Assembly: GCA_020523885.1 (NCBI GenBank) | Contig: JAJAPY010000004.1 | Span: forward strand, 234,761-268,762 | Direction of reading: 5' to 3' | Source: Candidatus Liberimonas magnetica | GTDB lineage: Bacteria; Elusimicrobiota; Endomicrobiia; Endomicrobiales; JAFGIL01 | Length of the DNA stretch: 34,002 nt | Part shown: piece by piece, positions 7,979-28,299 of the stretch | Layout of the letters: each line of letters starts with the position of its first letter | Numbering within the stretch: the stretch's first letter is position 1 | Made by a program: the position numbers and the translations under genes | The notes under the pieces: model-generated | What the model was told of the DNA's origin: nothing | The model's database searches: none | What the model saw: only the letters and a program-made list of their open reading frames with translations

Positions 7979-9604
7979 TCATATATATTTTAGATTCAAT
8001 TCGGGTATTCTTTTGTATAGACAATCGATATTGCAAAAATCATCAATATTATTTTCAATTATTCTCTTTCTATATTCGGCTATCTTATCTCCGTTCCATA
8101 TTTCTTCTATGCTATTGTTTTTTACATTACCAACACTATACTTGATCGGGCATTGGCATTCAGGCCTTACCCCGCCGCCAATATCAATATATAGCCTCTG
8201 CCATGGAACGTGGCAAAATAATCTACCGATCTTATTTTTCAAATTATGTTGTTTATCATTAAGAACATTTTCGTTTTCGATTTTAATGTATCCTTCTAAT
8301 TTATCGAACATCTTCTTGGAAGGTATCCTGTTTTCCAGCTTAATATTATATTTATCAGCCTTTTTTATTAATTTATCCCTTAAACCGTCTACGGACTTAA
8401 AAAGGTCAGAATCCCTGTTATAATAAAACATATTTTCTTCATAATTTTCAAAATCACATCCTGCTGAATTCAAAAGTACGCTGTTAAAGCCATATTTCTT
8501 AGCAAATTCGATGAATTTCGGGACCTGATGATAATTAGAGTTTATCACATACACGTTAAGTCTTGTTGTCATCTTGGAGCCAGATTTTGCCCTTATTGAA
8601 TTTATAAGCTTAATATTTCTTATAACCTTTTCAAAATTTGACCCTGGCCTGATATACTCATATATTTTTTTTGTCGTTCCATCTACTGAAAATGTTAACT
8701 CTAAATTAAGTTTGGCAAGTTTTTCTGCGATTTTTTCATTAATCAACAGCCCATTCGTAATAATAACCTGCTTTAGTCGATGCTTACCAGCTTCATCTAA
8801 AAGCTCCTCAAACCCATCATATAAAAAAGCTTCTCCTCCCTGCCATATAACTTTCTCCAAAAAAGGAAATAAAGCTACTATTTCATTTTTGGTCTTTTCC
8901 GGCAAACTCCACTCAATGTCCCTTATTTTACACATTATACATTTTAAATTACATTTATTCGTTAACGACACCACAAGGCTTCTTAATTTTGAAGTTAAGA
9001 CAACCTTATTACTCGCGATCTCGATTTCATTATTCAAAATATTCTTTGACATAGTGTCGTTATTAGGAATAATTTTATCAATATCTTTACAAATTTTTAA
9101 ATTCTCGGAATAATTTCCATGATAATTATTGCTTTGAACCAGGCGTATGCGTTCGTTGATCAATTCATCTGTATCATTTTTTACGAATGACGTATTATAT
9201 GTGTACTGGGCAGCTTTTTCCAAGTACTTGGCCGATGCATTGTTTTTACCCATTTCTTCATAGATTTTCGATAATTCTATTGCCATATTCTCTTCATTAT
9301 ACCCAAGCTTGATTGATTTTTGAAATTCTTTGATCGCGTCTTTATATCGCCTTATTGTTTTATACGCTTTTGCTAATAAGACATGTGTGTAGATATGTTT
9401 TTCATTTAATTTCAGTGCTTTTAATAAATGCTTTATAGCTAAATTATGTTTCCCTTGGATTAAATGCAGTTTACCCAGCTCAAAATATACCTGCTCATCA
9501 GTTTTATCTTTTTTTAAAAGATTGCTGAGTATTTTTTCAGCTTTGTCATACTTGTGTTCTTCAATATTATTTTTTGCCATCTCCAGTAAACAGTTATTGT
9601 TCAT
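7979..9604 (-). CDS. TPR-radical SAM-SPASM fusion protein (1)
   Basis: This 541-residue protein has TPR-like repeats at about residues 1-135 (VYFELGKLHLIQGKHNLAIK and similar), a linker, and an rSAM core with C218-x3-C222-x2-C225 (NKCNLKCIMC). The SAM-contacting GGE is in IWQGGEAFLYDGFEEL. The C-terminal SPASM-like region runs from CHVPW through CQCP, the conserved VGN...SIEEIWNG stretch, and a terminal CNIDC pair. SPASM proteins hold auxiliary FeS clusters and mostly modify peptides or proteins, though some act on other substrates. The ATG has AGAGG about 10 bp upstream and lies 5 bp after the preceding stop. It is the last of five consecutive TPR-rSAM genes and adjoins the exporter. Confidence 0.88.
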   Translation of the reverse strand: MNNNCLLEMAKNNIEEHKYDKAEKILSNLLKKDKTDEQVYFELGKLHLIQGKHNLAIKHLLKALKLNEKHIYTHVLLAKAYKTIRRYKDAIKEFQKSIKLGYNEENMAIELSKIYEEMGKNNASAKYLEKAAQYTYNTSFVKNDTDELINERIRLVQSNNYHGNYSENLKICKDIDKIIPNNDTMSKNILNNEIEIASNKVVLTSKLRSLVVSLTNKCNLKCIMCKIRDIEWSLPEKTKNEIVALFPFLEKVIWQGGEAFLYDGFEELLDEAGKHRLKQVIITNGLLINEKIAEKLAKLNLELTFSVDGTTKKIYEYIRPGSNFEKVIRNIKLINSIRAKSGSKMTTRLNVYVINSNYHQVPKFIEFAKKYGFNSVLLNSAGCDFENYEENMFYYNRDSDLFKSVDGLRDKLIKKADKYNIKLENRIPSKKMFDKLEGYIKIENENVLNDKQHNLKNKIGRLFCHVPWQRLYIDIGGGVRPECQCPIKYSVGNVKNNSIEEIWNGDKIAEYRKRIIENNIDDFCNIDCLYKRIPELNLKYI

Positions 9605-9609
9605 TTAAA

Positions 9610-11343
9610 TCAGACCTCTAACTTCAAATTATTACCAGGCATAACCCCGGAGGTACACCTGGGGCTGCACCACTTTGAACACTCATATTTAGATATTTTC
9701 TCTCTATACTTTGCCATGAGTTTTCCATTCCATATTTCTTCTAATGACTGGCTTGTTACATTGCCGATATGTTCTTCACAAAAACCATAGGGCTTGACAC
9801 AGCCGTTGGTAAGTATAAACAAGCTTTTCCATGGCCAATGGCATAAAATCTCATTTTTTATAAATACATTATTCGCATTGTTTTTAATTGAAGGGTCTTT
9901 TGGGGCAGGTTCATCATCCGGATATTCAGCGCAATTTCCGGTTTTAGGGAGAATATTTAATAGTTTTAACTCATATTCCTTTGCTTTTCTGATCACTGCC
10001 GGCATTTTATCATTGATATATTTGAATGCCTTTTTATCATTATTTAAAAATATGTTTTCTTTACTTTTAATATAGCGGACCGGAGTTATGTTTAAAGCAT
10101 CAAATCTGTATTTATTGGCAAATTCAACAAAATCAATTAATTGATGATAATTAGATTTAATGATCGTTGTCTGCAATATAATATTTATCTTAGATTTTGC
10201 AGTTCCATATATCTCTTTATACTTATTTAGGAATTTAATATTTTGTATCAATTTATCAAAACTTGCTCCGGTCCTAATTGCCTCATAGGACTTTTTTGTT
10301 GTCCCATCAATAGATAAAATAATATTTACATTGCTTTTTACTAATTTCTCTGCCCAGCTGTCGTTTATTAATTGCCCGTTTGTAACTATAACTTGATATA
10401 GATCCGGATAAGATGCTGCTTTATCAAAAAGTTCTTTAAATCTTTTATGAAAAAAAGGTTCTCCGCCAAGCCAATGAATATATTTCAAGTATGGGAACAA
10501 TCCGATTATTTCTTCAATTATTGATTCCGGCATATCCCAGGGGCTTGACCATACTTCGCACATCTTACACTTGATATTGCACCTGCTGGATAATGTAATA
10601 CCTAACACCATAGGTTTTGACTTAAGATATTTTTTCCTTTCAGATATTTCTGTTTCATTTTGGATTAAATTATCAAAGAATGCCTTATTCCCGAATGGTT
10701 CCATCTTACTAACTTTTTTAAAATGACCTTTTGACAGCTCAAATTCCCCCAATTCACGGTATAAAACCCCAAGCTTGTATTGCATGGAACTATCTACGGG
10801 CTTTTCTTTTTGTATTATTTCTAATTCTTGTTTCGCCTTATCATATTTCCCGGTTTCTTTATAGGCTTTTGCCAATTCATACCTTAATCCGTGGTTTTTA
10901 TAGCCTAATTTTAACGCGCTTTCAAACTTTTCTATAGCGCTGTCATATTGTTTCATCTCCATATAAAGGTTTCCCATGTCGTACAAAACACTGCCTTCAC
11001 CCTCATTATATTTTAAAACCAGGTTAAATTCCTTTAAAGAGCTCTTATAATCTTTTTGTATCATATAATACTTGCCGAGCAGGACATGGGCAAATAAATG
11101 TTTGCTGTTTAAACCTATTGTTTTTTTTAATTCTTTTACTGCAGGCAGGTAATTCTTATTTACAAAATACAGCTTTCCCAGTTCAAAATGGGCATCTTCA
11201 TTTAAAGGGTTTATTTTAATTACCTTTTTCAATATATTTTCTCCAGCATTATAATTACCGGGTAAAATGCTGTCCTTTGCAGTCTGTATAAGCATGGTTT
11301 CATTTGCCGCATTTATTTCCATAACTTTATTCTCAATTACCAT
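9610..11343 (-). CDS. TPR-radical SAM-SPASM fusion protein (2)
   Basis: This 577-residue protein has about five or six TPRs (residues 15-215, e.g. LYDMGNLYMEMKQYDSAIEK) followed by rSAM core C255-x3-C259-x2-C262 (SSRCNIKCKMC). WLGGEPFFHKRFKELF supplies the GGE motif and LSIDGTTKKSYEAIR matches the fifth-strand region of its siblings. SPASM-like cysteines follow: CHWPWKS, a GFC after a Gly-containing turn, IGN...SLEEIWNG, then CSKWCSPRC. The ATG directly abuts the upstream TAA, with AGGG about 8 bp before it, which suggests coupled translation. The TPR block is longer than in its siblings. It may bind partner enzymes or a protein substrate; the substrate is unknown. Confidence 0.88.
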   Translation of the reverse strand: MVIENKVMEINAANETMLIQTAKDSILPGNYNAGENILKKVIKINPLNEDAHFELGKLYFVNKNYLPAVKELKKTIGLNSKHLFAHVLLGKYYMIQKDYKSSLKEFNLVLKYNEGEGSVLYDMGNLYMEMKQYDSAIEKFESALKLGYKNHGLRYELAKAYKETGKYDKAKQELEIIQKEKPVDSSMQYKLGVLYRELGEFELSKGHFKKVSKMEPFGNKAFFDNLIQNETEISERKKYLKSKPMVLGITLSSRCNIKCKMCEVWSSPWDMPESIIEEIIGLFPYLKYIHWLGGEPFFHKRFKELFDKAASYPDLYQVIVTNGQLINDSWAEKLVKSNVNIILSIDGTTKKSYEAIRTGASFDKLIQNIKFLNKYKEIYGTAKSKINIILQTTIIKSNYHQLIDFVEFANKYRFDALNITPVRYIKSKENIFLNNDKKAFKYINDKMPAVIRKAKEYELKLLNILPKTGNCAEYPDDEPAPKDPSIKNNANNVFIKNEILCHWPWKSLFILTNGCVKPYGFCEEHIGNVTSQSLEEIWNGKLMAKYREKISKYECSKWCSPRCTSGVMPGNNLKLEV

Positions 11344-12900
11344 TTATTCAACCCTGCATATTTTATCTTTTACCTGGCCCATAATGCATTCTTTTTGGCA
11401 CAAATCCAAATAGTCATTATTTGCCAGCTTCCTTCTGTAAAACCTCATTCCTTCTCCATTCCAAATTTCGCTTAAACTCATAGAATCTGTGCTGCCAACA
11501 AACTTTTTTAAACAAAACCCGAAAGGACGTGCCATGCCATTGCAATCAATGAGCAATCGCTGCCAGGGTGCGAAACAGATCGGTTTATTTTTATCTTCCT
11601 TTATTCCCTGCTCATTTAAAGTATTCCCCATATTTTCATCAGCCTTGTTTTTTACATCACTGTCAAGAGGCAGCCAATCATTAAGCCTTATCCCGTAAGA
11701 TGCTGCGATTTTTCTGGCATTTTTCATACTATTTTTTAAACTTTCCAGTTTATTTTTATCGCCGAGGAAAATATCTTCTTCGCTATTTCTCCTGATCGGA
11801 GTAAATGTTACCGCATTAAAATCATATTTCTTGGCAAATTCAATAAAATTTTCCAATTCTGTATGGTTTGACTTCATTATTACGGCATTTAGATATATAT
11901 TGACCTTGTTGTTTTTGTAAGAGCGGAACTCCTTAACTAATCCTAAAACTTTTATCAGCCTTTCAAACCTTGCACCGCTTCTTATATACTCATAGGTTTC
12001 CTTGTCTACAGAATCTATGGAAAAAACGATATCTGTCTTGCCTTTCTCTATTTTCTGAAGTATTTTTTCATTTATCAGAAGTCCGTTGGTAAATATCACT
12101 TGCTTTAAATTGTCATGCCTGGCACCTTCCATAAGAATATCTTCAAACCCATTCATCATAAAAACTTCTCCGCCTTGCCAGGAAATATCTTCCATATAAG
12201 GGAATAAATCAACTATTTCTTTCATTATACTATCCCGTACTTGCCATGTCCCCTTCCATATATCGCATATCCGGCATTTTATATTACACCTATCCAGGAC
12301 CATCGCTATCATTGACCTTACTTTGGAATCCAGGACCTCTTTTCCTTCAGTTGCTTCTATTTCATTCAATACTTTATTAGACAGGAACCTGTTTCCGTTA
12401 TCAATAAAAGCGTATATTTTATTGAAAGTTTCAACAGCCTTTGATTTCTGTCCCTGTTCTCTATATACCCTTCCTAATTCCATCAGGATATCTACATTGT
12501 TTGGTTCAATATCAGCAGATCTTTCCAAGCATTTCATCGATTCATCTATATACCCGATATGTGTATATACATTGGCTAATTCCTTATAAATGTTTGCATC
12601 GTTGGGGAACTCTTTCAAATAACCCCTGTATTGTTCTAATGCCATCTCAAGCCTTCTCTGCCTAAAATATATCCTGGCTAATTCTAATTTTGCCAAATGG
12701 TAATTGGCGTTTATCTTTAATACTTTTTTGTACTCTGCCTCAGCTGACACATCGTTCCCCTGCATTTGATAGATCTTTGCCAATTCAAAAACCGCAAACG
12801 CATCTTCCGGGTCTTTAGTGAGCATTTCATTCAAAATTATTTTTGCCTCATCGATCTTGTTATTCAATATAAATTCTTTAACTGTCCCTAATAGTTCCAC
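11344..12900 (-). CDS. TPR-radical SAM-SPASM fusion protein (3)
   Basis: This protein has about 518 residues from a GTG start at 12900-12898. I prefer it because GGAG lies 6 bp upstream and the N-terminus then aligns with the sibling at 7979-9604; an ATG at 12960 would overlap the previous gene by 41 bp. TPRs fill residues 1-165 (LELARIYFRQRRLEMALEQY and others). The rSAM core is C205-x3-C209-x2-C212 (DRCNIKCRIC), with SWQGGEVFMMNGFEDIL supplying GGE. The SPASM-like tail has CFAPWQR, GFC, VGS...SLSEIWNG and CQKEC. The protein ends nearly flush with the next gene, whose ATG abuts this stop. Confidence 0.85.
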   Translation of the reverse strand: MELLGTVKEFILNNKIDEAKIILNEMLTKDPEDAFAVFELAKIYQMQGNDVSAEAEYKKVLKINANYHLAKLELARIYFRQRRLEMALEQYRGYLKEFPNDANIYKELANVYTHIGYIDESMKCLERSADIEPNNVDILMELGRVYREQGQKSKAVETFNKIYAFIDNGNRFLSNKVLNEIEATEGKEVLDSKVRSMIAMVLDRCNIKCRICDIWKGTWQVRDSIMKEIVDLFPYMEDISWQGGEVFMMNGFEDILMEGARHDNLKQVIFTNGLLINEKILQKIEKGKTDIVFSIDSVDKETYEYIRSGARFERLIKVLGLVKEFRSYKNNKVNIYLNAVIMKSNHTELENFIEFAKKYDFNAVTFTPIRRNSEEDIFLGDKNKLESLKNSMKNARKIAASYGIRLNDWLPLDSDVKNKADENMGNTLNEQGIKEDKNKPICFAPWQRLLIDCNGMARPFGFCLKKFVGSTDSMSLSEIWNGEGMRFYRRKLANNDYLDLCQKECIMGQVKDKICRVE

Positions 12901-12919
12901 GGGTAGCTCCGGTTTTAGT

Positions 12920-14653
12920 TTACCATCTTGCCATACATTCAGTCCTGCATATCCCTTCAAATTTACGGTCTATAATATTTCGCCTGTAAGACACCGCTGT
13001 TTTGCTGTTCCATATCTCATCAAGAGAATTTTCATCTATATTCCCGATTTTTCTTAGACAGGACCCGGTTATCAAAACATCCCCGTTATCACATATCATC
13101 ATATACTGCCACGGCATTTTACAGACTATTTCTTTTGATTTTATTTGCTGTACTTTTATCTCCGTATCTTCCTTTTTATTTATTTTTTTAAAGCTGGTTT
13201 CCGCAGGAGGCAGCAGGATATCAAGCTCTATTTTATATTCAGCTGACTTTTTTTTGATGGCCGGTATAGCTTTAGAAACAAACTTTATAGCGTCAGCATC
13301 TTTATTCTCATAAAATATATCTTCGTCCGGTGCCAGGTTAAAATGCAAGGCCATCAAGGATACCTGGTTAAACCCGTTATCTTTTGCAAATTCAATAAAA
13401 TCTTCGATTTGGAGGTAGTTGCTTTTCATAATTACCGCATTTAATCTAATGTTCATTTTAGGATTGTATTTATTCTTAGATTCGATTAGTTTCTTAACAT
13501 TTTTCATTAATTTATCATAACTTGAGCCTTGCCGTATAGATTCATACACATCTTTTGTTACACCGTCTATGGATACCGCTAACTCTGTATTTTTGGTCTG
13601 TACGATTTTGTTTATCCACTTGTCTGTTAAAATGACGCCGTTTGTAATTACATGCTGAGTAAGGTTTTCAAAACTTGCCGCTTTATCGAACATTTCCTCA
13701 AAATGTTTATATAGGAATACCTCTCCGCCCAGCCAAACCACTCTTTCAAGAAAAGGGTAATAATCCATAATTTCTTTGGCGGTTTTATAAGGCAAATCCC
13801 ATTTTTTATTCCATAAACCGCAAGTTTTGCACTTAATATTACATCTGGTAGTAAGTGTTGCCCATAAACGTTTAACTTTCGATCTCAAGACGATATCTTT
13901 TCGTAATATTTCTATCTTATTTAAGGCCATGTCCTGGTCGAAACAATTCTTTGGGGTTAAATTTAGAATTTTATTTTCTTCATCCTTAGAACATTCGTAT
14001 TTATTCAATATTTGGTACAATTCAGCCAGCCTTAAATGTACTTCCTTGTCATCTTTGATCTTAGACGCCTTTAAATAATATTCTATCGCTTTATTGTAGT
14101 CTTCCTTCAAATAAAATAAATCTCCTGTTTCACAAATTGCTTCATAGTTATTCTTGTCCAGAGCTGTAACTTTCACTAAATATTTCAGCGCTTCTTCTAA
14201 TCTTCCTAGTTTTTTGTATATTTTAGCATAAATGATGTTTGCTTCCGGATCATCGTTTGATGTTTCCGAATAACTCCCCAGGCACTTCAAGGCTTTATCG
14301 AAATCTCCTAACTGGCAATATATATTGCCAAGTTCCAAATATGCTGCAGGATTACGTCCGCATATATCATTAAGAACCTTTATTGTTTGTTCATAAATAT
14401 TTGAAAGGCAGGATATTTCTCCTAACTCTTTTATGGCCTCGTTATTATGCGGGTTTACTTCGATTAAATCTATAAATGATTTTATAGCTTGAAGAGGATT
14501 ATTCATCATTTTATAAATCTTGGCGATTTCTAATTTCGCTCTTTCCCGGTATTCCGGATCATTGCCAATATTGATGAAACACTCCAAAGCTTTATCATAT
14601 AAGCCATCTTTCTGATAATTATATGCGGTAATTATTTCATTTTTAGTAGTCAT
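12920..14653 (-). CDS. TPR-radical SAM-SPASM fusion protein (4)
   Basis: This protein has about 577 residues from the ATG at 14653, 4 bp after the previous stop. An ATG at 14680 would add nine residues but overlaps the upstream gene by 23 bp. About six TPRs cover residues 8-215 (LELGNIYCQLGDFDKALKCL, AKIYKKLGRLEEALKYL). The rSAM core is C271-x3-C275-x2-C278 (TTRCNIKCKTC); VWLGGEVFLYKHFEEMF carries GGE, and LAVSIDGVTKDVYESIR matches the siblings. The SPASM-like tail has CKMPWQY, a GSC, IGN...SLDEIWNS and CRTEC at the extreme C-terminus. In order and motif spacing it is a clear duplicate of its three neighbours, with strongly diverged TPR sequence. Confidence 0.87.
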   Translation of the reverse strand: MTTKNEIITAYNYQKDGLYDKALECFINIGNDPEYRERAKLEIAKIYKMMNNPLQAIKSFIDLIEVNPHNNEAIKELGEISCLSNIYEQTIKVLNDICGRNPAAYLELGNIYCQLGDFDKALKCLGSYSETSNDDPEANIIYAKIYKKLGRLEEALKYLVKVTALDKNNYEAICETGDLFYLKEDYNKAIEYYLKASKIKDDKEVHLRLAELYQILNKYECSKDEENKILNLTPKNCFDQDMALNKIEILRKDIVLRSKVKRLWATLTTRCNIKCKTCGLWNKKWDLPYKTAKEIMDYYPFLERVVWLGGEVFLYKHFEEMFDKAASFENLTQHVITNGVILTDKWINKIVQTKNTELAVSIDGVTKDVYESIRQGSSYDKLMKNVKKLIESKNKYNPKMNIRLNAVIMKSNYLQIEDFIEFAKDNGFNQVSLMALHFNLAPDEDIFYENKDADAIKFVSKAIPAIKKKSAEYKIELDILLPPAETSFKKINKKEDTEIKVQQIKSKEIVCKMPWQYMMICDNGDVLITGSCLRKIGNIDENSLDEIWNSKTAVSYRRNIIDRKFEGICRTECMARW

Positions 14654-14657
14654 ACGT

Positions 14658-16055
14658 TTAAAACGGCATTTCCCAGTCATCTAGCCATGTTGAAAGCCAC
14701 CTTTCCTCCTGGCCTGTTACCATACATCTCCAGCATCTGCAGTTATCATTCCGGCAGTTTTCCGGTTCTTCCAAAAGATTGAAACTTCCGTCAAATAGAT
14801 TGCCTAAACTTAGTAAACCGTCATCCGTACAGCACCTATATGCCTGTCCGTTGGGATATATCCTTGCATAAGTGAAGCCCATAAGACATTTTTTTGCTGT
14901 TTCTTTGACCGTTTCCTTAATATCGTCTTTATCTTTTCTCCAATCAGATTCTATCTTGCTTTTTTTATCGATCCCGTATATTTTATCAAACTCATAATCA
15001 GTGTATGCAGCAGGATATTTTTTATCGTTTAAAGATCCGGAAAAAGGATGGATAATAAAAGGCACATCTATTTCGTCAAGCTTCCTTTTATACGAATCTA
15101 CCCTGTCCACATAGGGCGGATAACCTACAAATACCCCTATTACCTTAAAACCCCTCTCTTTTAATTTATTTAAATTCGCTGCGAATTCTTCAATGTTCAT
15201 GAATTCAGGATGAATACTTGCGTCAATCCTGACATTTTTCGGGTCAATTTCTTTTATAAACTTATTAATATTAAAAGACAGGTTTGTATTTATCTGGAGC
15301 TTGTGAAAATTTGACAGCTCTTTAACCAGCCTTATAAAATCCGGATAGACTGAAGGTTCACCTCCGTCTAAGCGTATCCTGCAAGCCCCATATTTCATTG
15401 AAACATTTTTCCAGGCATCAATTATCTTTTCTGTCCCCGGATAAGAAGCGATATGTTTAATATCTTTCTTAAAATCTTTTTGTCCTGGTTTTGGCGTATA
15501 ACAGTAAGAACACTTATAATTGCATTCATAATGCATTCCCCAGGTAATAAAGACCCGATAAGGCGCTAATTTCCCTCTTTTGCCTTTTACTTCTTTTATC
15601 TTATTAAGCCAACTGCTTATCTTTTCGTCAGGGCTGATAGTTAAAAACGCATTAAATTCTTTTTTTGAAGCGCTATAATCTCCGAGTAGCCTGTTTATTT
15701 TACCAAGTTCCAAATGCGCCTGTGCATTATTATAATTTACTTTAATGGCTCTTTCAAGCAGCTCTTTGGCCTCTTTTTGTTTTCCTTCTTTCCAATATAA
15801 CTTTGATAATTCTATCAGGGCGAGATCATGTTTATTATCCAAATCTATGGCTTTTTCATATTCCGATGCTGCCATTTCATGTAACTTTTTCGCAACATAT
15901 ATATTTGCTAATTCAAAATGTGCCTGTGAGTTATTTGCATCATTTTTAATGACACCCTTAAAAATATGTTCTGCTTTATCAAAAAGATTATTATCCCTAT
16001 AACCTTTTCCAAGCTCAATATTCTTTTGGTTTGTTCTATCTATATTTTCCTTCAT
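14658..16055 (-). CDS. TPR fused to short-type radical SAM protein
   Basis: I chose the ATG at 16055 because it overlaps the upstream TGA in an ATGA arrangement, giving about 465 residues; an upstream ATG at 16106 would overlap by 55 bp. Residues 10-150 hold about four TPRs (FELANIYVAKKLHEMAASEY). The catalytic half belongs to the short-rSAM family rather than the SPASM group next door: C178-x3-C182-x2-C185 (ECNYKCSYCYTP), RLDGGEPSVYPDF, a HPEF motif, HPFSGSLNDKKYPAAYTDYE, then RCC, LGNLFDGSFNLLEEP and CRNDNCRCW. It ends in a Trp-rich tail. It is therefore a hybrid linking the two rSAM families of the locus. Confidence 0.87.
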   Translation of the reverse strand: MKENIDRTNQKNIELGKGYRDNNLFDKAEHIFKGVIKNDANNSQAHFELANIYVAKKLHEMAASEYEKAIDLDNKHDLALIELSKLYWKEGKQKEAKELLERAIKVNYNNAQAHLELGKINRLLGDYSASKKEFNAFLTISPDEKISSWLNKIKEVKGKRGKLAPYRVFITWGMHYECNYKCSYCYTPKPGQKDFKKDIKHIASYPGTEKIIDAWKNVSMKYGACRIRLDGGEPSVYPDFIRLVKELSNFHKLQINTNLSFNINKFIKEIDPKNVRIDASIHPEFMNIEEFAANLNKLKERGFKVIGVFVGYPPYVDRVDSYKRKLDEIDVPFIIHPFSGSLNDKKYPAAYTDYEFDKIYGIDKKSKIESDWRKDKDDIKETVKETAKKCLMGFTYARIYPNGQAYRCCTDDGLLSLGNLFDGSFNLLEEPENCRNDNCRCWRCMVTGQEERWLSTWLDDWEMPF

Positions 16056-16861: not shown

Positions 16862-16997
16862 TCAGTTTTGTAATTCGTTATATTCATCTGAATACCCTTA
16901 TTTAAATATTTTTAAAAGTTAGTGTAGTTAGAGAAGTCTGACACCATAACCTTAGTTCATTAGTCAAGCCAGGCACTGCTACTCAGGCAACGCTACT
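16862..16997. other. Intergenic spacer with a 14-bp imperfect direct repeat
   Basis: This short AT-rich spacer lies between the short-rSAM start and the ORF6N remnant. Two adjacent 14-bp units, caggcactgctact at 16970-16983 and caggcaacgctact at 16984-16997, differ at two positions and abut the ORF6N stop. No gene, tRNA or clear promoter is recognised. Confidence 0.4.
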
Positions 16998-17390: not shown

Positions 17391-17402
17391 GACGAATAGT
17401 AT

Positions 17403-17416
17403 GGGACGTATGCAAC
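17403..17416 (+). repeat. Left 14-bp inverted end of transposase element
   Basis: Sequence gggacgtatgcaac, the exact reverse complement of 18478-18491. It lies immediately outside the transposase stop codon and a few bases from the point where ORF6N similarity ends. Confidence 0.75.
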
Positions 17417-17440
17417 ATAGCTACATTGTTCATTTTATCA

Positions 17441-20721: not shown

Positions 20722-21653
20722 GATTTAGTTTTGATTTTCGGCGTTTGCCAGTGAAAAAGCCAGTTCTTTTCCTCATCTACTATCATGGCGACCCAGCACG
20801 GGCATTTATCAAGACGGCACTCCTTAGGTTCATCATAAAGAGCGAAGGTCCCGTCAATAAGGTTGCCGATCTTTCCTTCTTCCTTTATCAAACAACACCT
20901 GTAAGCGTTGCCGTTGGAGTGGATCTTTGTGTAGACCTGCCCCATTCGGCATAACTTTCCAAGGTGAGGGTTAAGAGGCTTTTCTTTCTTGTCTCCGTCG
21001 TTTTTATCGCCGTAAGATTCCAGCATCTTTGGGGCTGTCCTGGGATCGCACTTGCATACCAGCTCTCTTTCCTCTTTGGTATAGCTCTGCGGATACTCTT
21101 TGCCCTTGTATTTGCCGCGGAACGGCATTACGTCAAAAGATATATGTTCAATGTCAAAACCCGACTTGTATTCTTCCATCCTGGCTAACTGTTCAGGGAA
21201 CGCGACATAGTTTACGCCAAGGTCATACCCCCCGTCCTTCAGAGCTTTGGCTTTTTTAAGGAACGTGCCGAAATCCGCAAACTGAGGATGGAACGAAGCC
21301 GCGAACCTTACCCGGTCAGGCGGTATCTTCTTCATGAATTCATCTACGTCAAAAGACAGGTTCGTATCAAACTCAACCGTGAATTTATCGGTCAGGAACG
21401 AGACCAGCTCGATGAAACCGGGGTAATGGAACGGCTCGCCGCCGGAAATGTGCAGGTGGCCTTCACCGTACTTGTCGTAGATATCACCCCATATCCTTTT
21501 CCATTCTTCTATTCCGGGATACCTGTTCTTTTTTTTCTCCTCTTCCCAGGTATCGTTAAAAAAACAATAACTGCACCTGTAATTGCATGCATAATGGATA
21601 TCCCAGGTATAAAAACATTTCCCGGGAGGTATATTTTTTCTGGCGTTCTTCAT
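20718..21653 (-). CDS. Short-type radical SAM protein (C)
   Basis: This 311-residue protein has C23-x3-C27-x2-C30 (YACNYRCSYCFFNDTWEEE). LHISGGEPFHYPGF follows, then SFHPQFADFGTFL and YVAFPEQL, with MPFRGKYKGKEYPQSYTKEE as the family motif. The C-terminal half has LCRMGQVYTKI, RCC, IGNLIDGTFALYDEPKEC and DKCPCW, then a tail with NWLFHWQTP. A charged insertion (YGDKNDGDKKEKP) separates the YP motif from the cysteine region. It is linked on both sides by 4-bp ATGA overlaps to the genes at 21650 and 19870. Of the family, this member shows every motif most completely. Confidence 0.89.
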   Translation of the reverse strand: MKNARKNIPPGKCFYTWDIHYACNYRCSYCFFNDTWEEEKKKNRYPGIEEWKRIWGDIYDKYGEGHLHISGGEPFHYPGFIELVSFLTDKFTVEFDTNLSFDVDEFMKKIPPDRVRFAASFHPQFADFGTFLKKAKALKDGGYDLGVNYVAFPEQLARMEEYKSGFDIEHISFDVMPFRGKYKGKEYPQSYTKEERELVCKCDPRTAPKMLESYGDKNDGDKKEKPLNPHLGKLCRMGQVYTKIHSNGNAYRCCLIKEEGKIGNLIDGTFALYDEPKECRLDKCPCWVAMIVDEEKNWLFHWQTPKIKTKS

Positions 21654-22705
21654 TTCTTTTCCCTTTTAATGTAATTGGCATATTCTTTCATATACTCAGT
21701 TCTATAAACCGGATGTTCCAGCGCTTCCCAGAGAGGGACCCACTTATCTTCTTCTTGCCCAACGAGCATACTTTTAAAACACGGGCACTGGTAACTTACC
21801 TTGCAGGCAGCCGGTTCATCCAGCAGCTTGAAATCCTTATCAAGGATGCTGCCCAGGGAGCCTGAATCTACCCCGTGATAACCGGCACAGCACCTGGTCA
21901 CTGAACCGTCCGGGTGTATCTTTGCATACATCTGGCCCATCCGGCACAACTCGCCTGTTTTTACTTTTTTTCCCGGTTCTTCTTCCCTTTTTACACGCCA
22001 GTCATACCACCTGGAGTTCATGTCCTTTAAATGCTCGTCCAGGGCATCTTTTGCAATGCCTTCAAGAAGCATTTTCTCTTCAACACTATAGGACTGAGGG
22101 TACCATTTATCATTGAACTTACCTGCGAACGGTATGACCTTAAAGTATATCCTCTCGCTTTCCACCATTTTTTTATACTCAGAAATCTTACCGAGATGGT
22201 TAGGATATCCAACATAGCATATAGTTGACGGGAACCCGTTATGATGAAGGAACTTTACTTTATCAAGGTATTTTTTCATGTCATCGAATTCCGGATGAAA
22301 ACTTGACGAGATGGACACCCCGTTGTTTGGCGGGATTTTGTCCAGGAATTCCTTCATATCAAAACTTAGGTTAGTCGTTATATCTACCGAATTGTATTTC
22401 AAAAGCGTTTTAACGAGACCCCAGAAATTCGGGTAAATAGTCGGCTCTCCCCCGGAAAATCTTACATGGCTTCCCCAATATTTTTCGAATATCTTTTCCC
22501 AAGCCTCTTCCCATCTGCTTATATCTATGCTTTTAGACTTAAATTCTATATCTCTTTTTATTACTTCGCAGTAAGAACACTTATAGTTGCATTTGAACGA
22601 AATATCCCAGTTCCAGTGAACACGGTACGGGGGGTCCAGCCTGGGATATTTTGGTATTCTAACTAATTTATTCTTTAAATCGTAGATATTTATGATCGTC
22701 TTCAT
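21650..22705 (-). CDS. Short-type radical SAM protein (D), extended
   Basis: At 351 residues this is the longest of the unfused short-rSAM family. A roughly 25-residue N-terminal extension precedes C39-x3-C43-x2-C46 (FKCNYKCSYCEVIKRD). HVRFSGGEPTIYPNF, SFHPEFDDMKKYL, YVGYPNHL and IPFAGKFNDKWYPQSYSVEE follow. A longer insertion precedes the C-terminal cysteine region: LCRMGQMYAKIHPDGSVTRC, LGSILDKDFKLLDEPAAC, and SYQCPCF with one extra residue before CPC. The tail includes KWVPLWEALEHP and a lysine-rich end. It overlaps the next gene by ATGA and begins 18 bp after the previous stop. Confidence 0.88.
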   Translation of the reverse strand: MKTIINIYDLKNKLVRIPKYPRLDPPYRVHWNWDISFKCNYKCSYCEVIKRDIEFKSKSIDISRWEEAWEKIFEKYWGSHVRFSGGEPTIYPNFWGLVKTLLKYNSVDITTNLSFDMKEFLDKIPPNNGVSISSSFHPEFDDMKKYLDKVKFLHHNGFPSTICYVGYPNHLGKISEYKKMVESERIYFKVIPFAGKFNDKWYPQSYSVEEKMLLEGIAKDALDEHLKDMNSRWYDWRVKREEEPGKKVKTGELCRMGQMYAKIHPDGSVTRCCAGYHGVDSGSLGSILDKDFKLLDEPAACKVSYQCPCFKSMLVGQEEDKWVPLWEALEHPVYRTEYMKEYANYIKREKK

Positions 22706-22723: not shown

Positions 22724-23590
22724 TTATTCCGTAATCGCTTTCAGGCATGGGCACATTTCCACATCGCATGGCAACGCTTTTTTAAGCAAAGTAAAGTTAT
22801 CGTCGAATATATTGCCTATTAAGTGCCTTTCTCCTATCTGTCCGCACCGTGCAACTTTGCCGTCGGGAAATATTAAAGCTGATTTTTTGCCGGCCGCACA
22901 CATTACACCTTTTTTTTCAACGTTTTCTTTCCAGGTATTATCAAGCCCAAGCATATTTTTCTCTTCAGCATTATAACTCTCCGGGTAAGAAAACCCGTTG
23001 TAATTCCCATAAAACGGGATAACCTTCAGTACCTCATTTTGTGAACTTGCTACTTTTAAATAATTGTTAAATTCTTTTAAGTAGCCCGGGTATGCGCACA
23101 AATTAATATTTCCTGTCTGGAAATCATGTTTTCTCAAATATTTTACCTTACCTATAATATCCTCCAGCTTATCGTAATTTGGCTGAAAACTTAATGTTAT
23201 AGAAACTTTTTGCGGGTCTACTTTATTTACAAATTCTTCTAGCCCCAGGGAACCGTTCGTTGATATATTTATAGGATAATGCAACTGCGACAGTTTTGAT
23301 ACGAGGCTTGTAAAATCGGGATATATAAAAGGTTCTCCGCCTGTTATAAGCACGCTTGCCCGCCCATATTTGTCATAAATTCTCTGCCAGTGTGCCATCC
23401 ACTCATTTACAGAAAGATAAACGGTACGTTTGCCGTACTCTTCCCACTTTCCTTCAAATATGCAATGAGGACACCGGTAGTTGCAGGCATAAAGCATATT
23501 CCACTCAAAGTTAATCATATCAGGAATATTGAAACTTTCCTTTTTAGAGTCCTTGCCCTGTAAATAGAAACTGTCTTTTATTTCTTGCAT
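22724..23590 (-). CDS. Short-type radical SAM protein (E)
   Basis: This 288-residue protein has C36-x3-C40-x2-C43 (YACNYRCPHCIFEGKWEEYG). VLITGGEPFIYPDF and LSFQPNYDKLEDI follow; the family His-Pro is here Gln-Pro. LCAYPGYL and IPFYGNYNGFSYPESYNAEE come next. The C-terminal cysteines are MCAAGKKSALIFPDGKVARC, IGNIFDDNFTLLKKALPC and EMCPCLKA, and the protein ends three residues later. The start lies 10 bp after the upstream B12-type rSAM stop. No strong ribosome binding site is visible, so expression may depend on readthrough from the upstream gene. Confidence 0.87.
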   Translation of the reverse strand: MQEIKDSFYLQGKDSKKESFNIPDMINFEWNMLYACNYRCPHCIFEGKWEEYGKRTVYLSVNEWMAHWQRIYDKYGRASVLITGGEPFIYPDFTSLVSKLSQLHYPINISTNGSLGLEEFVNKVDPQKVSITLSFQPNYDKLEDIIGKVKYLRKHDFQTGNINLCAYPGYLKEFNNYLKVASSQNEVLKVIPFYGNYNGFSYPESYNAEEKNMLGLDNTWKENVEKKGVMCAAGKKSALIFPDGKVARCGQIGERHLIGNIFDDNFTLLKKALPCDVEMCPCLKAITE

Positions 23591-23600: not shown

Positions 23601-25172
23601 CTATACTGTTTTATTTAGGATTTTTGTATCTATTGATTTTATCCTATTAAGGACTGCCTCGTTTTTTGGGTCAAGTTTTTGATATTTTCTAAAATATTCC
23701 AGTGCAGTATCGTATTCATTAATATATTCATAATAACTGCCGAGGTTAAACCATTCGTCCAGTTCTACCGTGGTCCTAACCCCGTTATCAACCTGCACGC
23801 CCAGGTCCAGGCACAATTTTTCGAATTCCTTGCATCTTTTTAATCTTACAGGGTAGGTATTTTTCCCGTCTAGGGTCTCCCAATAAAGATGATGTGAAAA
23901 CGGCGTCTTTATCATAAACTTACCGGGTTCAGTATGCAATTTGCTGTTTTCTTCGATCGCACAATAAGTCCTGCTCGGATATACCCTGGTGAAATATTTT
24001 CCCATGTCCTTAATAAAATCCAGCGTTAAGTGAAAATCATTTTCTGTTTCGCCTGGAAATCCAAACATAAAATTGCCTGTAACCCTGATCCCTGATTCAC
24101 AAGCATCTTTTATTATCCTTTTAGCATCTTTAATATCATATTTTTTGTTCATCAGCTTTAAAATCCTGGCAGAGCCGGATTCTATTCCGAAAATCAAGTG
24201 CTTACATCCTGCTTTTGCCATTTTCTGAACAATATTCGTTGTCATCTTTTTGTTTATAATCGCATTTGCCACCCAGAGAATCTTTGTTCCGTACGGGGGA
24301 TATTTTATCATCAGGTCGCAAAATTCTTCTGTCCTTGATACATTCGCATTAAAAACCAGGTCCTGAAAATCTATATGGCAAATCTCAGGATACGATAATT
24401 TATGAAAACTTATTTCCTGATGCAGCCTTTCTGCATTCATTTCCCTGTAAGTGCCCCAGAAACTTCTTGAACTGCAAAAACTGCAATCCCATACACATCC
24501 TCTTGAACTCATTATGGCAAAGTGCTCTTTATCATCATAATCTTCTATTTTTAAATCAGAAAAATCCATATACGGCAGGCTGTCCAGGTTATTCATAGGT
24601 TTCCTGTCACCTGTATAGAAGGTTTTTTCTTTATCTCTTATATATACCCCTAAGCAATCTCGTAAAGAGCCGCTTTTGTCCATCTCCTGGCATAATTCAG
24701 GGAATGCCCTATCCCCTTCTCCGGGAATTACGTAATCAACAGGAGATTCCTTAAATATTTTTTCAATATAACATTTCTCGTTGAATATCTGGCCGCCAAA
24801 GATTATTAATAAGTCTTTATTTTTTTCTTTCAACTCCTTGGCATATTGAATGCTTGCCCAATATGTCGAAGAAGTAATGGAAAAAGCCGCCATTCTTGGC
24901 GCATGCTTTAATATATTTTCAGTAAAACTATTTATAATATTATTCATAGACAAAAAGAACTCATTTACACTGTTTTTATCATACCAAAAAGATGACTGTT
25001 CCCATGCCCACAAGTTCTTCATGTTATCTTCTCTTTTAGTATATAAATAGTTATTTAGGTCATAAGATTTAGCTTCATGACCTTTACTTTTAAGGCATGC
25101 ACTCAATTGTACGATTGACAAAGGTGGTTCCCTTGTCCCCCAGACCGGGCACTGGATCAAAGCGACTCTCAT
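23601..25172 (-). CDS. B12-binding-type radical SAM protein with C-terminal TPR
   Basis: This 523-residue protein starts with a cobalamin-binding-type domain (VALIQCPVWGTREPPLSIVQ, LLIIFGGQIF, VIPGEGDRAF). The 4Fe-4S site is C226-x3-C230-x2-C233 (SSRGCVWDCSFCSSRSFWGT). A typical elongated class B barrel follows (FGIESGSARILKLMNKKY, GNFMFGFPGETENDF). The final 50 residues contain a TPR-like unit (WFNLGSYYEYINEYDTALEY), unusual at this end. The ATG overlaps the preceding stop by 4 bp and has a GGAGG-like ribosome binding site. It sits between the SPASM trio and the short-rSAM block. The DxHxxG motif is absent. The reaction is unknown; methylation or ring chemistry would fit the class. Confidence 0.89.
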   Translation of the reverse strand: MRVALIQCPVWGTREPPLSIVQLSACLKSKGHEAKSYDLNNYLYTKREDNMKNLWAWEQSSFWYDKNSVNEFFLSMNNIINSFTENILKHAPRMAAFSITSSTYWASIQYAKELKEKNKDLLIIFGGQIFNEKCYIEKIFKESPVDYVIPGEGDRAFPELCQEMDKSGSLRDCLGVYIRDKEKTFYTGDRKPMNNLDSLPYMDFSDLKIEDYDDKEHFAIMSSRGCVWDCSFCSSRSFWGTYREMNAERLHQEISFHKLSYPEICHIDFQDLVFNANVSRTEEFCDLMIKYPPYGTKILWVANAIINKKMTTNIVQKMAKAGCKHLIFGIESGSARILKLMNKKYDIKDAKRIIKDACESGIRVTGNFMFGFPGETENDFHLTLDFIKDMGKYFTRVYPSRTYCAIEENSKLHTEPGKFMIKTPFSHHLYWETLDGKNTYPVRLKRCKEFEKLCLDLGVQVDNGVRTTVELDEWFNLGSYYEYINEYDTALEYFRKYQKLDPKNEAVLNRIKSIDTKILNKTV

Positions 25173-26254
25173 GCTCCCTCCAGTAACTTATTTATTTCTT
25201 CATCATTTTTTCCACGGGTTATTATATGAGATTTAAAATCATTAACAGAAGAAGGGTTAGCTCTAAAACAGTATTGAGAACATGAATATTTGCCATCTAT
25301 CAGCTTTTTTCTGATGTTTTTGTAATAATCGCCATTCCAGACATCCATAAATTCTTTGTTTTTTAAACTCTCCTTTGAATCTCCTGCAACATCGCAAGTA
25401 ATAATATCGCCTTCAGGATTTATCATTAATTGAGTCCAGGCTTCACTGCATAGCTGATGATTTAAGCTATGGCCATTCCCGAACCTCGGAGGCAATATTA
25501 CGTTAATATTATTTTTCTGAGCTTTATCTTTTGCCAGGTCCAATATTTTATTAGTTTTTTCTTTGATGAAATAACAAGAGAGATCTTTTTGATCAAGCCT
25601 GTAAACGTAGTTATAATAAACTATCACTGAATTAGCATCAAAATCTTTTGCAAAATCAATAAAATCCGGCAAATTTTCTATATTTTTTGTCGTTGCAAGG
25701 AATATGAAGTTTATCCTTAAATTGTTTCCTTTAGATCTCTTTAAATGCTCTAAATTATAGATTAAAACCCCGTAATTCTTTGATTTTGTCATTGTTTCAT
25801 GGGTAACCTCGTTGCTTGAGTGAATTGACACATGGATTGTGTAAATATTGCCGCTTTCAAGAATAAAATCAACCATCTTGGGAGTTAATGAACTTCCATT
25901 TGTTGCAAACATTTTTTCTGCATATTTGAACTGGTTGAAATACCCAAGTATTTTTTTTGCTTCCGGCAAAAGAAGAAGCTCGCCTGATCCGGTCAGGTTT
26001 ATTCTTTCTGCCCTGGTAAGTACCGGTAAAAGTTTTTTTTCATAATTACACTTGAATTCCTCAAAGTTGAAATAGCTATAAACCGCAGGCCTTGAACAGA
26101 ACAAACAATCCTGATTGCAGGGCGCATCCAGCTGTACAAAGACGTATCTTGGATAGGATTCAAGGGTAAGTTTCCTATCTGTAAATTCCCTACTATTTAA
26201 AATATTATTCTTCAAAACAATTTCTCTTTCTTCAATCGATGCTGATTTTTGCAT
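25169..26254 (-). CDS. Radical SAM-SPASM protein (paralogue of 27187-28299)
   Basis: This 361-residue protein has C46-x3-C50-x2-C53 (DAPCNQDCLFCSRPAVYSYF). A NLTGSGELLLLPE stretch stands where siblings have GGE. SIHSSNEVTHETMTKSK and IFLATTKNIENLPDFIDFAK are shared with the protein encoded at 27187-28299. The SPASM-like end is LCSEAWTQLMINPEGDIITC, DVWNGDYYKNIRKKL and CSQYCFRA, followed by an SHIITRG tail that both paralogues carry. It overlaps the gene before it by 23 bp and the gene after it by 4 bp. The two paralogues flank a different SPASM protein, so the block is interleaved rather than a simple tandem. Confidence 0.87.
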   Translation of the reverse strand: MQKSASIEEREIVLKNNILNSREFTDRKLTLESYPRYVFVQLDAPCNQDCLFCSRPAVYSYFNFEEFKCNYEKKLLPVLTRAERINLTGSGELLLLPEAKKILGYFNQFKYAEKMFATNGSSLTPKMVDFILESGNIYTIHVSIHSSNEVTHETMTKSKNYGVLIYNLEHLKRSKGNNLRINFIFLATTKNIENLPDFIDFAKDFDANSVIVYYNYVYRLDQKDLSCYFIKEKTNKILDLAKDKAQKNNINVILPPRFGNGHSLNHQLCSEAWTQLMINPEGDIITCDVAGDSKESLKNKEFMDVWNGDYYKNIRKKLIDGKYSCSQYCFRANPSSVNDFKSHIITRGKNDEEINKLLEGA

Positions 26255-27218
26255 GGTTACTTACTCCTATATGGTCGCAGTTCGTACAAACATTATTTTC
26301 CTTTGGCTTTGTCCTGTCTTTAACAAATTTACGTGCAACCCTGTATTTCTTTCCGTTCCAGATCATCCAGAAAGGTTTTTTAAAGAATTCATAAAAATCG
26401 TCTTTCTGATCTTCTACTGAACAACAAGGAGAAACAGAACCGTCAGCATTTATAGTTATACCATCCCACAACCAGCCGCATATTTGTTCTACTGGTTTAA
26501 ATTCTATTTTATCCTCTACTACTTTGTATCTGTTAAATTCATCCTTATTTGAAACCCATTCGGGAGAACAGAAAGGCGCTGTAAAACCTATAGAATCAAC
26601 TCCTATTTCTTTAGCCATAGCTTTTGCTTTATCAATTTCATGTTCATTATGCTTAAAAACCAGGAATTGCCAGTGTATATGAGGAATTTCCTTGTTTAAA
26701 TCCTTTTTTACCTTAACTAATAATTTCAAATTACTTAATGCTTTTTCAAAGTTTCCATCCCTTCTATAAATTTCATAAACTTCTTGACTAGCACCATCTA
26801 TAGAAGCAGAAATCCAGTCTACTCCAGACTTTATCAATGCAACGGCATCATCTTTAGAAAGCTCAACATTCAAATTTGTATCCAATTTTATTTCAGGACT
26901 GAACCTTTCTTTGGTATAAGTTATCATCCGGGAAATATCTTTATTTAAAAGCGGCTCACCCCAGTTACAAAAATCGATATGAAAAAGATACGGCCCCAGC
27001 TTATCTATTATTTTCTTATAATCATTAAATGACAATGTTGCCTGTACCCTGGTACCTCTTCTTTGACCGGTAGGGCAGAACACACATTTTAAATTACAGA
27101 TATTAGATGGGTCAATCGTCAGCCAGTAAGGATACCCTATTACAATTTGAGTCCTTAGCCGTTTTTGTAATTCGATCAATTTATAGTTATATTTTTTTAT
27201 TAGATATCGGATATTCAT
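26232..27218 (-). CDS. Radical SAM-SPASM protein
   Basis: This protein has 328 residues from the ATG at 27218; a TTG at 27233 would add five residues. The 4Fe-4S site is C41-x3-C45-x2-C48 (SNICNLKCVFCPTGQRRG), and FCNWGEPLLNKDISRM supplies the GEP motif. SASIDGASQEVYEIYRRDG follows. The SPASM-like end has ICGWLWDGITINADGSVSPC, MIWNGKKYRVARKFV and CTNCDH. The basic, amphipathic N-terminus (about 25 residues before the core) could be membrane-associated, as in some glycan- or lipid-linked rSAM families; this is inference. It overlaps the upstream gene by about 30 bp and the downstream gene by 23 bp. Confidence 0.87.
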   Translation of the reverse strand: MNIRYLIKKYNYKLIELQKRLRTQIVIGYPYWLTIDPSNICNLKCVFCPTGQRRGTRVQATLSFNDYKKIIDKLGPYLFHIDFCNWGEPLLNKDISRMITYTKERFSPEIKLDTNLNVELSKDDAVALIKSGVDWISASIDGASQEVYEIYRRDGNFEKALSNLKLLVKVKKDLNKEIPHIHWQFLVFKHNEHEIDKAKAMAKEIGVDSIGFTAPFCSPEWVSNKDEFNRYKVVEDKIEFKPVEQICGWLWDGITINADGSVSPCCSVEDQKDDFYEFFKKPFWMIWNGKKYRVARKFVKDRTKPKENNVCTNCDHIGVSNHAKISID

Positions 27219-28299
27219 TTTTGTGTTTCTCAAGATATAACAATATCTCCGCTTGTGCTTCCGGCCTAAAAGTTATATGGGATTTAATATTATTTATATT
27301 ATTCAAATCATATCTATAGCAATCCCTGCACCAGGAATGAGGTTCATCGTTTATTAAACCTTCCCGCAGTTTCGTATAGCCCGGCCCGTTCCATATATCA
27401 TAAAACTCCTGTTTTTCTAAATATCCTATGTGATTACCGGCAAAACAACAGGGGTTTACAGACCCCTGCGTTTCAACGTAAAAAAAGTTCCATGGATCAT
27501 AACAGGGAGGTTTATTTTTAACTTTATTATCATAAATCCCGAACTTTGGCGGTAAATTTAAAGACATATTTAATTTTAATGCCAAAGCCTCTGCATCTTT
27601 TAATATTTTGTTTGTCTTCTCCGGATTAAAAAAACATGACAATTTTATCTGGTCAGGATTAAAAATAGTTAAATAGTTGCATGTTACAGTATCTACGCCG
27701 ATCTGTTTTGCTAATTTTATAAAATCTGGGAGGTTTTCAATGTTTATAGTTGTGGCCAAGAATATTAAATTGATATGCAGAGTACTTCTCTTTATTTTTT
27801 TTATCTCTATTAATTTCTTTATATTTGATATTATTTTATCCCAGGCTTTTGTCCTGGTCATAGACTCATGTAATTTCTTGTCCGCGGCATGTAAAGATAT
27901 CAACAGGGAATACTTGCCGTCGGTAATTATATCTGATATTTCCGAATTTATCGATATTCCGTTCGTAGTAAATACTTTTGTATTATCTGGTAATTTAATA
28001 TTTATATATTCTAAGTAATTTATAAACTCAGGTATCAGAAATATTTCACCAAAACCGCAAAATCCAATATGGTCTGCTTTTTTAAGGACCTTACCTATTC
28101 TATTTTCAAATAAATCTTTGTATACCTGAAGACTAAAGTTCGGGAAATCGCCTCCGAGGCAAAATACGCAGTTTGCATTGCATTTTGCGTGAGCCCCGAT
28201 TGTAATATACTGTGGAGTTGTCCGCAATCTGATTTTATGCAATCTCACTTCCGCATCATTATCTTCTTTGTTTTTTTGAATTATATTTATTTCATTCAT
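27187..28299 (-). CDS. Radical SAM-SPASM protein (paralogue of 25169-26254)
   Basis: This 370-residue protein has C40-x3-C44-x2-C47 (HAKCNANCVFCLGGDFPNF), a GFCGFGEIFLIPEF stretch in the GGE position, SLHAADKKLHESMTRTK, and IFLATTINIENLPDFIKLAK shared with its paralogue. The SPASM-like end runs through CYDPWNFFYVETQGSVNPCC, DIWNGPGYTKLREGL and CRDCYRYD, with an SHITFRPEAQAEI tail. The ATG overlaps the stop of the giant beta-helix gene by 8 bp, which places that surface-type protein at the head of the same transcription unit. The region overlapping the next gene (about 30 bp) encodes a lysine-rich end. Confidence 0.88.
   Translation of the reverse strand: MNEINIIQKNKEDNDAEVRLHKIRLRTTPQYITIGAHAKCNANCVFCLGGDFPNFSLQVYKDLFENRIGKVLKKADHIGFCGFGEIFLIPEFINYLEYINIKLPDNTKVFTTNGISINSEISDIITDGKYSLLISLHAADKKLHESMTRTKAWDKIISNIKKLIEIKKIKRSTLHINLIFLATTINIENLPDFIKLAKQIGVDTVTCNYLTIFNPDQIKLSCFFNPEKTNKILKDAEALALKLNMSLNLPPKFGIYDNKVKNKPPCYDPWNFFYVETQGSVNPCCFAGNHIGYLEKQEFYDIWNGPGYTKLREGLINDEPHSWCRDCYRYDLNNINNIKSHITFRPEAQAEILLYLEKHKNEYPISNKKI

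Follow-up and report, generated by a model that had tools for sequence, protein, structure and literature searches.

An ordered array of radical SAM genes beside a glycan-type exporter in Elusimicrobiota and Omnitrophota

Introduction

Radical S-adenosylmethionine (SAM) enzymes act on unactivated C–H bonds and, to our knowledge, known pathways employ only one to few of them. The locus described here, from Candidatus Liberimonas magnetica (Elusimicrobiota; assembly GCA_020523885.1), carries 16 intact radical SAM genes next to the genes of an ATP-binding cassette (ABC) exporter. The stretch analysed, hereafter the window, consists of the final 34,002 bases of contig JAJAPY010000004.1 (C4; 268,762 bases) of a 3.39-Mb draft genome, which is G000 in the numbering of genomes (G) and loci (L) used below. 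The presence of such an array beside an exporter in poorly studied anaerobes points to an undescribed pathway to a heavily and unusually modified surface sugar.

Organization of the locus

Open reading frames (ORFs) were called mechanically. The features of the window are given from its right end, where the array begins, with the source of each assignment:

28292..34002, minus strand: NT, right-handed beta-helix repeats and C-terminal nucleotidyltransferase domain (RRGLTSNDWIPGASDIDLL); Pfam Beta_helix/NosD, Foldseek
27187..28299, minus strand: SPa, radical SAM/SPASM; Pfam; Omnitrophota orthologue fused to GT2, GT4 and SPf
26232..27233, minus strand: SPb, radical SAM/SPASM; Pfam
25169..26254, minus strand: SPc, radical SAM/SPASM; Pfam; relative fused to Methyltransf_24 in L014
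23601..25172, minus strand: B12a, cobalamin-binding radical SAM with TPR at the C-terminus; Pfam
22724..23590, minus strand: ST1, short radical SAM, a single Cys set for an auxiliary cluster; Pfam, tree
21650..22705, minus strand: ST2, short radical SAM; Pfam, tree, structural model
20718..21653, minus strand: ST3, short radical SAM; Pfam, tree
19870..20721, minus strand: ST4, short radical SAM; Pfam, tree
18917..19768, minus strand: ST5, short radical SAM; Pfam, tree
16862..18916, no strand assigned: insertion island, outside the pathway; Pfam, RF02003, inverted repeats
16052..16861, minus strand: ST6, short radical SAM; Pfam, tree
14658..16106 (likely start ATG 16055), minus strand: TST, TPR fused to short-type radical SAM; Pfam, tree
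12920..14680, minus strand: TS1, TPR–radical SAM–SPASM; Pfam
11344..12960, minus strand: TS2, TPR–radical SAM–SPASM; Pfam
9610..11343, minus strand: TS3, TPR–radical SAM–SPASM; Pfam
7979..9604, minus strand: TS4, TPR–radical SAM–SPASM; Pfam
7195..7956, minus strand: ABCm, Wzm/TarG-family glycan-exporter permease; Pfam ABC2_membrane, PDB matches
6418..7182, minus strand: ABCa, Wzt/TarH-family glycan-exporter ATPase; PDB matches
5679..6425, minus strand: TPR protein, residues 22–50 a single hydrophobic segment by eye; Pfam, sequence
5373..5558, minus strand: B12-type radical SAM remnant, 61-residue ORF (TSRGCPNKYNDCKTILFGNKVR); read by eye
3704..5290, minus strand: PMT_2 glycosyltransferase; Pfam; family too frequent in the genome for confident linkage
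1903..3498, minus strand: PMT_2 glycosyltransferase; Pfam; same caveat on linkage
328..1701, minus strand: B12b, cobalamin-binding radical SAM; Pfam

As stated in a preliminary description of this DNA, 15 of the intact radical SAM genes lie at 7979–28299 and one at 328–1701, all on the minus strand; the 16 proteins exceed the PF04055 cut-off and contain exactly one CxxxCxxC motif apiece. The remnant counted there as a seventeenth gene also holds on a reading by eye: its sequence is similar to the beginning of a B12-type radical SAM protein in which the middle (second) cysteine of the motif has become a tyrosine. The whole genome yields 95 PF04055 matches, that is, about one expected per 34 kb. 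The locus reaches further left, to C4:220445, and on its right side it continues past the contig end; it therefore occupies approximately C4:220445–268762 (about 48 kb) and holds 19 radical SAM genes, where about 1.4 would be expected at random. The three additional genes (C4:224125, 225206, and 230650), on the same strand, comprise a short one (ST7), a B12 type, and a SPASM type (SPf). The other genes on this side encode a GT2 glycosyltransferase, an HprK-like P-loop protein, a GDSL/TPR protein, a YdjC-GT2 protein, a methyltransferase, and a membrane TPR protein. Directly left of the window a run of 100 N is present (L002, 14661–14760), because of which the TPR gene at this place is incomplete.

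The array is tightly packed. Overlaps of four nucleotides are found at 19870/20718, 20718/21650, and 23601/25169, and one of 8 bp at 27187/28292; the remaining gaps between array genes are of at most 22 bp, apart from a 101-bp hairpin gap (19769–19869) and a 2055-bp island, which agrees with the coupling proposed earlier. Longer overlaps (23–55 bp) hinge on TTG or upstream starts; for instance, the alternative ATG of TST at 16055 gives an ATGA overlap. The ORF at 18837–19115, which overlaps ST5, was discarded as spurious. The hairpin itself (19820–19865, CCCCTCTT-TAACAAA-AGAGGGG) is located inside the sole unexplained gap between radical SAM genes and, by eye, has no adjacent T run.

Four architectures had been distinguished among these enzymes. 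The types named then are retained, but their number rises to five (B12-type, SPASM, TPR-SPASM, short, and TPR-short), as TST joins TPR to the short type and gave no match to SPASM. PF13186 is above its gathering score in SPa–SPc and TS1–TS4 and, among the short types, in ST4 alone, barely; PF02310 is above it in the two B12-dependent enzymes, B12a and B12b. The short type has seven cysteines, three of the SAM cluster and four C-terminal, which are kept in 49–50 of the 50 aligned members. None of the radical SAM proteins scanned attains its NCBIfam cut-off. The best match of the short enzymes tested is NF038073 (STM4011 family), and membership in it was rejected, with 59–77 bits against a cut-off of 200 bits. 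The structural model of ST2 is confident (predicted local distance difference test score, pLDDT, 92), and among solved structures it comes closest to SPASM/twitch enzymes whose substrates are either peptides (SkfB, SuiB, CteB, anSME, EpeE) or sugars and cyclitols (BlsE, SpeY, BtrN). By itself, this predicted structure leaves the substrate, peptide or sugar, undecided.

A fixed core shared by two phyla

An alignment of the short type was scanned against the genome collection and the best 70 loci were retained. Nearly all of them belong to Elusimicrobiota or Omnitrophota; the others comprise one distant match in Xanthobacter, a handful of unnamed bacteria, and a contig assigned to Sumerlaeota (L054), possibly through a binning error. 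Members of both phyla keep the order NT, SPa, SPb, SPc, B12a, ST1, ST2, ST3, ST4, ST5, ST6, TST, TS, where the ortholog names beyond the short type are best matches. Four of the relatives (G020, G033, G102, and G029) are classed in the same taxonomic order as the source genome. The comparison covered the 29 loci in which three or more assignments were confident: 561 of 592 ortholog pairs stood in the order of the window, against an average of 297, and never more than 383, in 2000 shuffles.

The phylogeny of the short enzymes is consistent with this order. In a maximum-likelihood tree of 95 short-type domains, computed in "quick" mode with Shimodaira–Hasegawa-like approximate likelihood ratio (SH-aLRT) supports and no bootstrap, ST1–ST6 and TST form separate clades; ST1, ST2, ST3, ST4, ST6, and TST are supported at 96–100 and ST5 more weakly. 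Each of these clades includes a member from the Omnitrophota locus L009 in the same syntenic role. Since every clade spans Elusimicrobiota and Omnitrophota, the duplications must be older than the spread across the two phyla. Collinearity, together with one clade per short position, argues for a fixed multi-step set with a variable TPR tail rather than for random family expansion. It is important to note that the conserved order demonstrates a functional unit, not that the enzymes work in gene order.

Among the best-preserved relatives, the locus of G020 has 20 radical SAM genes, that of G033 about 28, that of G029 15, and that of G102 19, in all cases on a single strand. The core positions are retained, while the number of TPR-SPASM genes goes from none (G029) to about 15 (G033). 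The multi-step modification pathway suggested in the preliminary description is thus supported by one-to-one orthologous, collinear enzymes in two phyla, whereas its "combinatorial" variant does not apply to the core, as only the TPR-SPASM genes vary.

Within Elusimicrobiota, the short family is found in 30 of 295 genomes and the NT domain in 43; both occur together in 23, where 4.4 would be expected, a co-occurrence whose p-value is nominal because the genomes are related. Within Omnitrophota, a short-family match was obtained in 50 of 285 sampled genomes, many of which have a single weaker relative only. The GC content at third codon positions is 0.48–0.56 in ST2–ST5 (18917–22705), compared with about 0.3–0.4 in the flanking genes, which hints at transfer; in G033, the TPR-SPASM genes are lower in GC than the core. 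Another Elusimicrobia genome contains, at 116.7–168.4 kb of JAFGSA010000046.1 (L013, L028, L073), about 25 ORFs with the radical SAM motif on one strand of 52 kb, most of them TPR-SPASM.

Fusion proteins

Several steps of the putative pathway are joined in single polypeptides. In 23 loci, 44 proteins hold two or three radical SAM domains, each with its own motif; L009, for instance, encodes B12a+ST1+SPc (1197 residues) and ST5+ST2+ST3 (976 residues). Two Omnitrophota genomes extend these fusions to glycosyltransferases: a 2077-residue GT2-GT2-GT4-SPf-SPa polypeptide in G298 and a 1689-residue GT2-GT4-SPf-SPa polypeptide, cut by the contig end, in G295. The SPf and SPa parts were assigned by reciprocal best match (36–46% identity). 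About 40 kb separates these two genes in the source genome; the fusion thereby links the opposite ends of the locus with each other and with glycosyltransferases. The SPASM relative of SPc fused to Methyltransf_24 belongs to an Omnitrophota locus.

On another contig of the source genome (G000:C21, about 38–58 kb; L083, L084), a single frame of 7031 residues encodes a giant multi-domain protein with a radical SAM domain. Judged by eye only, this frame seems to have a cyclic-glucan-synthase- or phosphorylase-like region and deaminase-like parts.

The exporter module and the glycosyltransferases

The two ABC genes encode a Wzm/Wzt-family exporter pair. ABCm matches PDB 6oih (4e-16) and TarG (2e-12), and ABCa matches 6amx (6e-53) and TarH (3e-45); the NCBIfam scores, for galactan permease in the former and for teichoic acid/galactan export in the latter, are under the equivalog cut-offs. 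The glycosyltransferases that would accompany such a pair in a glycan locus are represented by the GT2 at C4:221446 and the YdjC-GT2 at C4:232119.

The exporter is part of a seven-gene module with the order ABCm–ABCa–ST7–B12 radical SAM–SPf–GT2–HprK-like. In G020, G033, G191, G046, and G094 (in the last one cut at SPf by the contig end), this module stands alone in identical order on a contig apart from that of the array; in the source genome, G029, and G102, its genes come after the array with other genes interspersed. A B12b-like gene, 26–28% identical, is also found near the exporter in G029 and G102. One ABC2_membrane gene lies within about 1–8 kb of an ST gene in each of G000, G020, G029, G033, and G102, and one is on the array contig in G298. 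The link between exporter and radical SAM genes is specific, because there are just 1–5 genes of this permease family per genome. Genes of the same families are thus found next to this exporter in relatives, and the scattering that would have refuted the preliminary description was not observed. Its inclusion of two "GT39" genes in the signature had to be abandoned: PMT_2 genes are ubiquitous in these genomes (34 in the source), and the two copies of the window weigh little for this reason. Neighbours in other loci are YdjC-GT2, O-carbamoyltransferase, GDSL, and methyltransferase genes.

The NT protein

NT is the first gene of the array. Its beta-helix repeats had been recognized earlier; to these must be added the C-terminal nucleotidyltransferase domain, with the conserved pattern GxSDID (GxSDIDxL-type), and the fact that the ORF (28292–33685) has no real start in the window, its frame being open to the contig end. 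The nucleotidyltransferase domain has no Pfam or NCBIfam match, and a profile sequence search of PDB gave none either; its best fold match is AAD(9)/AadA (Foldseek E 1.7e-3, probability 1.0), obtained with a model whose mean pLDDT is only 67. In G275 this domain is fused to GT2.

A stretch of 1418 bp is tandemly duplicated inside the gene with 98.7% identity, because of which the protein contains a partial second nucleotidyltransferase domain; the duplication may be genuine or an assembly artefact at the contig end. The contig ends within the NT gene not only in the source genome but also in G020, G033, G046, G102, G191, and L054, and this recurrence in at least seven assemblies suggests that the gene is long and repetitive and interrupts assembly. 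The only complete NT protein read, from L062, has no obvious signal peptide by eye.

A proposed surface glycan and the alternatives

On balance, we lean towards a locus for the synthesis, modification, and export of a glycan or glycolipid of the cell surface, in which a fixed series of distinct radical SAM enzymes would change the sugars. The exporter family, the glycosyltransferase fusions, the neighbouring genes, and the absence of both a precursor peptide and PqqD, taken together, favour a glycan as the substrate that the preliminary description had left unknown. Such a glycan would be assembled in the cytoplasm while attached to a carrier lipid. One hydrogen atom might then be abstracted by each radical SAM enzyme, and the conserved auxiliary Fe–S cluster would accept an electron, as happens in SPASM/twitch dehydrogenases and epimerases, with oxidation, epimerisation, or cross-linking of one position as the outcome; methylation or cyclisation might fall to the B12 enzymes. 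The core enzymes would make a common unit, to which the TPR-SPASM set would add lineage-specific decorations. The product or one of its precursors could receive a nucleotide from the NT domain, the beta-helix serving as holder or scaffold, and the ABC transporter would export the completed glycan. A more demanding version, in which at least a dozen non-redundant radical SAM enzymes act successively, in the manner of an assembly line, on one lipid-linked glycan and yield a polymer of the cell surface whose sugars or cross-links, made by radical chemistry, belong to an undescribed class, is put forward tentatively, as it is rather doubtful.

Several points weigh against a surface glycan. The enzyme activities, the chemistry, and the product are inferred, and so are the individual reactions, the sequence in which the enzymes would act, and what NT, the TPR parts, and the HprK-like protein contribute. 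The peptide maturases SkfB, SuiB, and CteB are the closest structures to ST2, ahead of or among BlsE, SpeY, and BtrN. Neither sugar-nucleotide synthesis genes nor an initiating transferase were recognized in the locus, the latter not having been searched genome-wide. Array and exporter module are found on separate contigs in Endomicrobiaceae, and all relatives are draft or metagenome-assembled genomes.

The similarity of ST2 to BlsE (blasticidin), SpeY (spectinomycin), and BtrN (butirosin synthesis) also fits a small-molecule pathway, in which the array would make, and the exporter secrete, a specialised metabolite resembling, for instance, an aminocyclitol or a glycolipid instead of a structural polymer. 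The best fold matches of the NT domain, the aminoglycoside nucleotidyltransferases AAD(9) and AadA, point the same way, and B12-dependent radical SAM enzymes are frequent in pathways of this kind. However, the exporter family carries lipid-linked polymers, the fusions involve GT2 and GT4, and the fold match of the NT domain is a weak one on the whole (E above 1e-3, with the pLDDT given above); we therefore regard a secreted metabolite as unlikely. An origin of the neighbouring genes by successive tandem duplications, leaving partly redundant enzymes that belong to no single pathway, would account for the uneven number of TPR-SPASM genes, for the remnant and the mobile-element island inside the locus, and for the abundance of radical SAM genes genome-wide (95 in the source, 108 in G295). 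This is the least probable of the explanations considered, as every position of the short type goes back to an ancient lineage of its own, conserved separately and kept in order in two phyla, and both the retention of the seven cysteines and the recurrent fusions speak against redundancy.

Modification of a peptide or protein, in the manner of ribosomally synthesized and post-translationally modified peptides (RiPPs), is quite unlikely too. SPASM enzymes modify mostly peptides, as do the structures nearest to ST2; TPR domains frequently bind proteins; and HprK-like kinases are found in RiPP clusters. The substrate might even be the beta-helix repeats of NT, since a protein with no obvious signal peptide, as read in L062, would meet cytoplasmic enzymes. 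These repeats, however, vary much in residues and length among relatives, and the NT protein was rejected as a conserved substrate because the cysteines of the window repeats are not retained there. A search for precursors among ORFs of 20–130 residues outside larger genes, comparing eight loci, gave a single cross-genome match of 54–59 residues, which was discarded as it corresponds to the membrane protein DUF5989. No PqqD was found near the arrays; it occurs only on other contigs of G000, G020, G033, and G102 and is absent from G029, G295, and G298, a test that does not exclude divergent RiPP recognition element (RRE) domains. A RiPP gene cluster would be expected to have a conserved precursor gene and a PqqD/RRE domain, and neither was detected, while the exporter and the fusions indicate glycans.

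Comparison with known systems

A surface glycan would bring the locus closest to the Wzm/Wzt O-antigen, TarGH teichoic acid, and galactan loci, with which it shares an exporter pair of the same family, GT2, and nearby deacetylase-like and methyltransferase genes; the carbamoyltransferase of the relatives is a further likeness to loci for ABC-transporter-dependent glycans. Unlike these, the present locus has no recognized initiating transferase or sugar-nucleotide genes, and we know of no such glycan locus with 11 or more radical SAM enzymes. BtrN, SpeY, and BlsE have the same SPASM/twitch-type radical SAM fold and auxiliary cluster, but their pathways use one or few radical SAM enzymes to make soluble antibiotics and have no Wzm/Wzt-type exporter. 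Several radical SAM enzymes, including B12 types, contribute to one product in the RiPP clusters of SynChlorMet (ScmE/ScmF), polytheonamide (PoyB/C/D), and bottromycin; these clusters differ in their defining precursor peptide and in having far fewer radical SAM genes, and the NCBIfam scores of the present proteins against such families are far under the cut-offs. The STM4011 family is the nearest to the short enzymes tested, below the threshold for membership. FbiC, a CofG/CofH fusion, also has two radical SAM domains per chain, but it serves a two-step synthesis of F420; no three-domain or glycosyltransferase fusions of this type are known to us.

No described pathway of this composition was found in the open-access literature, in keeping with the preliminary description. 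Judged by titles and match counts, no open-access paper ties Elusimicrobia, Elusimicrobiota, Omnitrophota, or Omnitrophica to such arrays, and a phrase search for tandem radical SAM proteins gave no match either, subscription journals and preprints lying outside the coverage of both. If a glycan is indeed the product, an almost unstudied bacterial group would make it by radical chemistry at an unprecedented scale, with at least 11 different conserved radical SAM enzymes linked to a glycan exporter; the best-preserved relatives have about 15–28 radical SAM genes in each locus. Should the successive radical tailoring by at least a dozen enzymes be true, the system would form a category of its own beyond ABC-transporter-dependent glycan loci. 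The defined core genes, the orthologues for each step, and the natural multi-enzyme fusions, which lend themselves to direct expression, make the product and the reactions testable.

The mobile-element island

The 2055-bp island between ST5 and ST6 contains a 5′ remnant of a group II intron (18751–18619; RF02003), a Y1 transposase gene (17441–18442) flanked by imperfect 27-nucleotide inverted repeats, and an ORF6N fragment (16998–17351). In G020, G033, and L006 the same site is occupied by a TPR-SPASM gene. The array of G102 is also interrupted, in this case by genes on the opposite strand.

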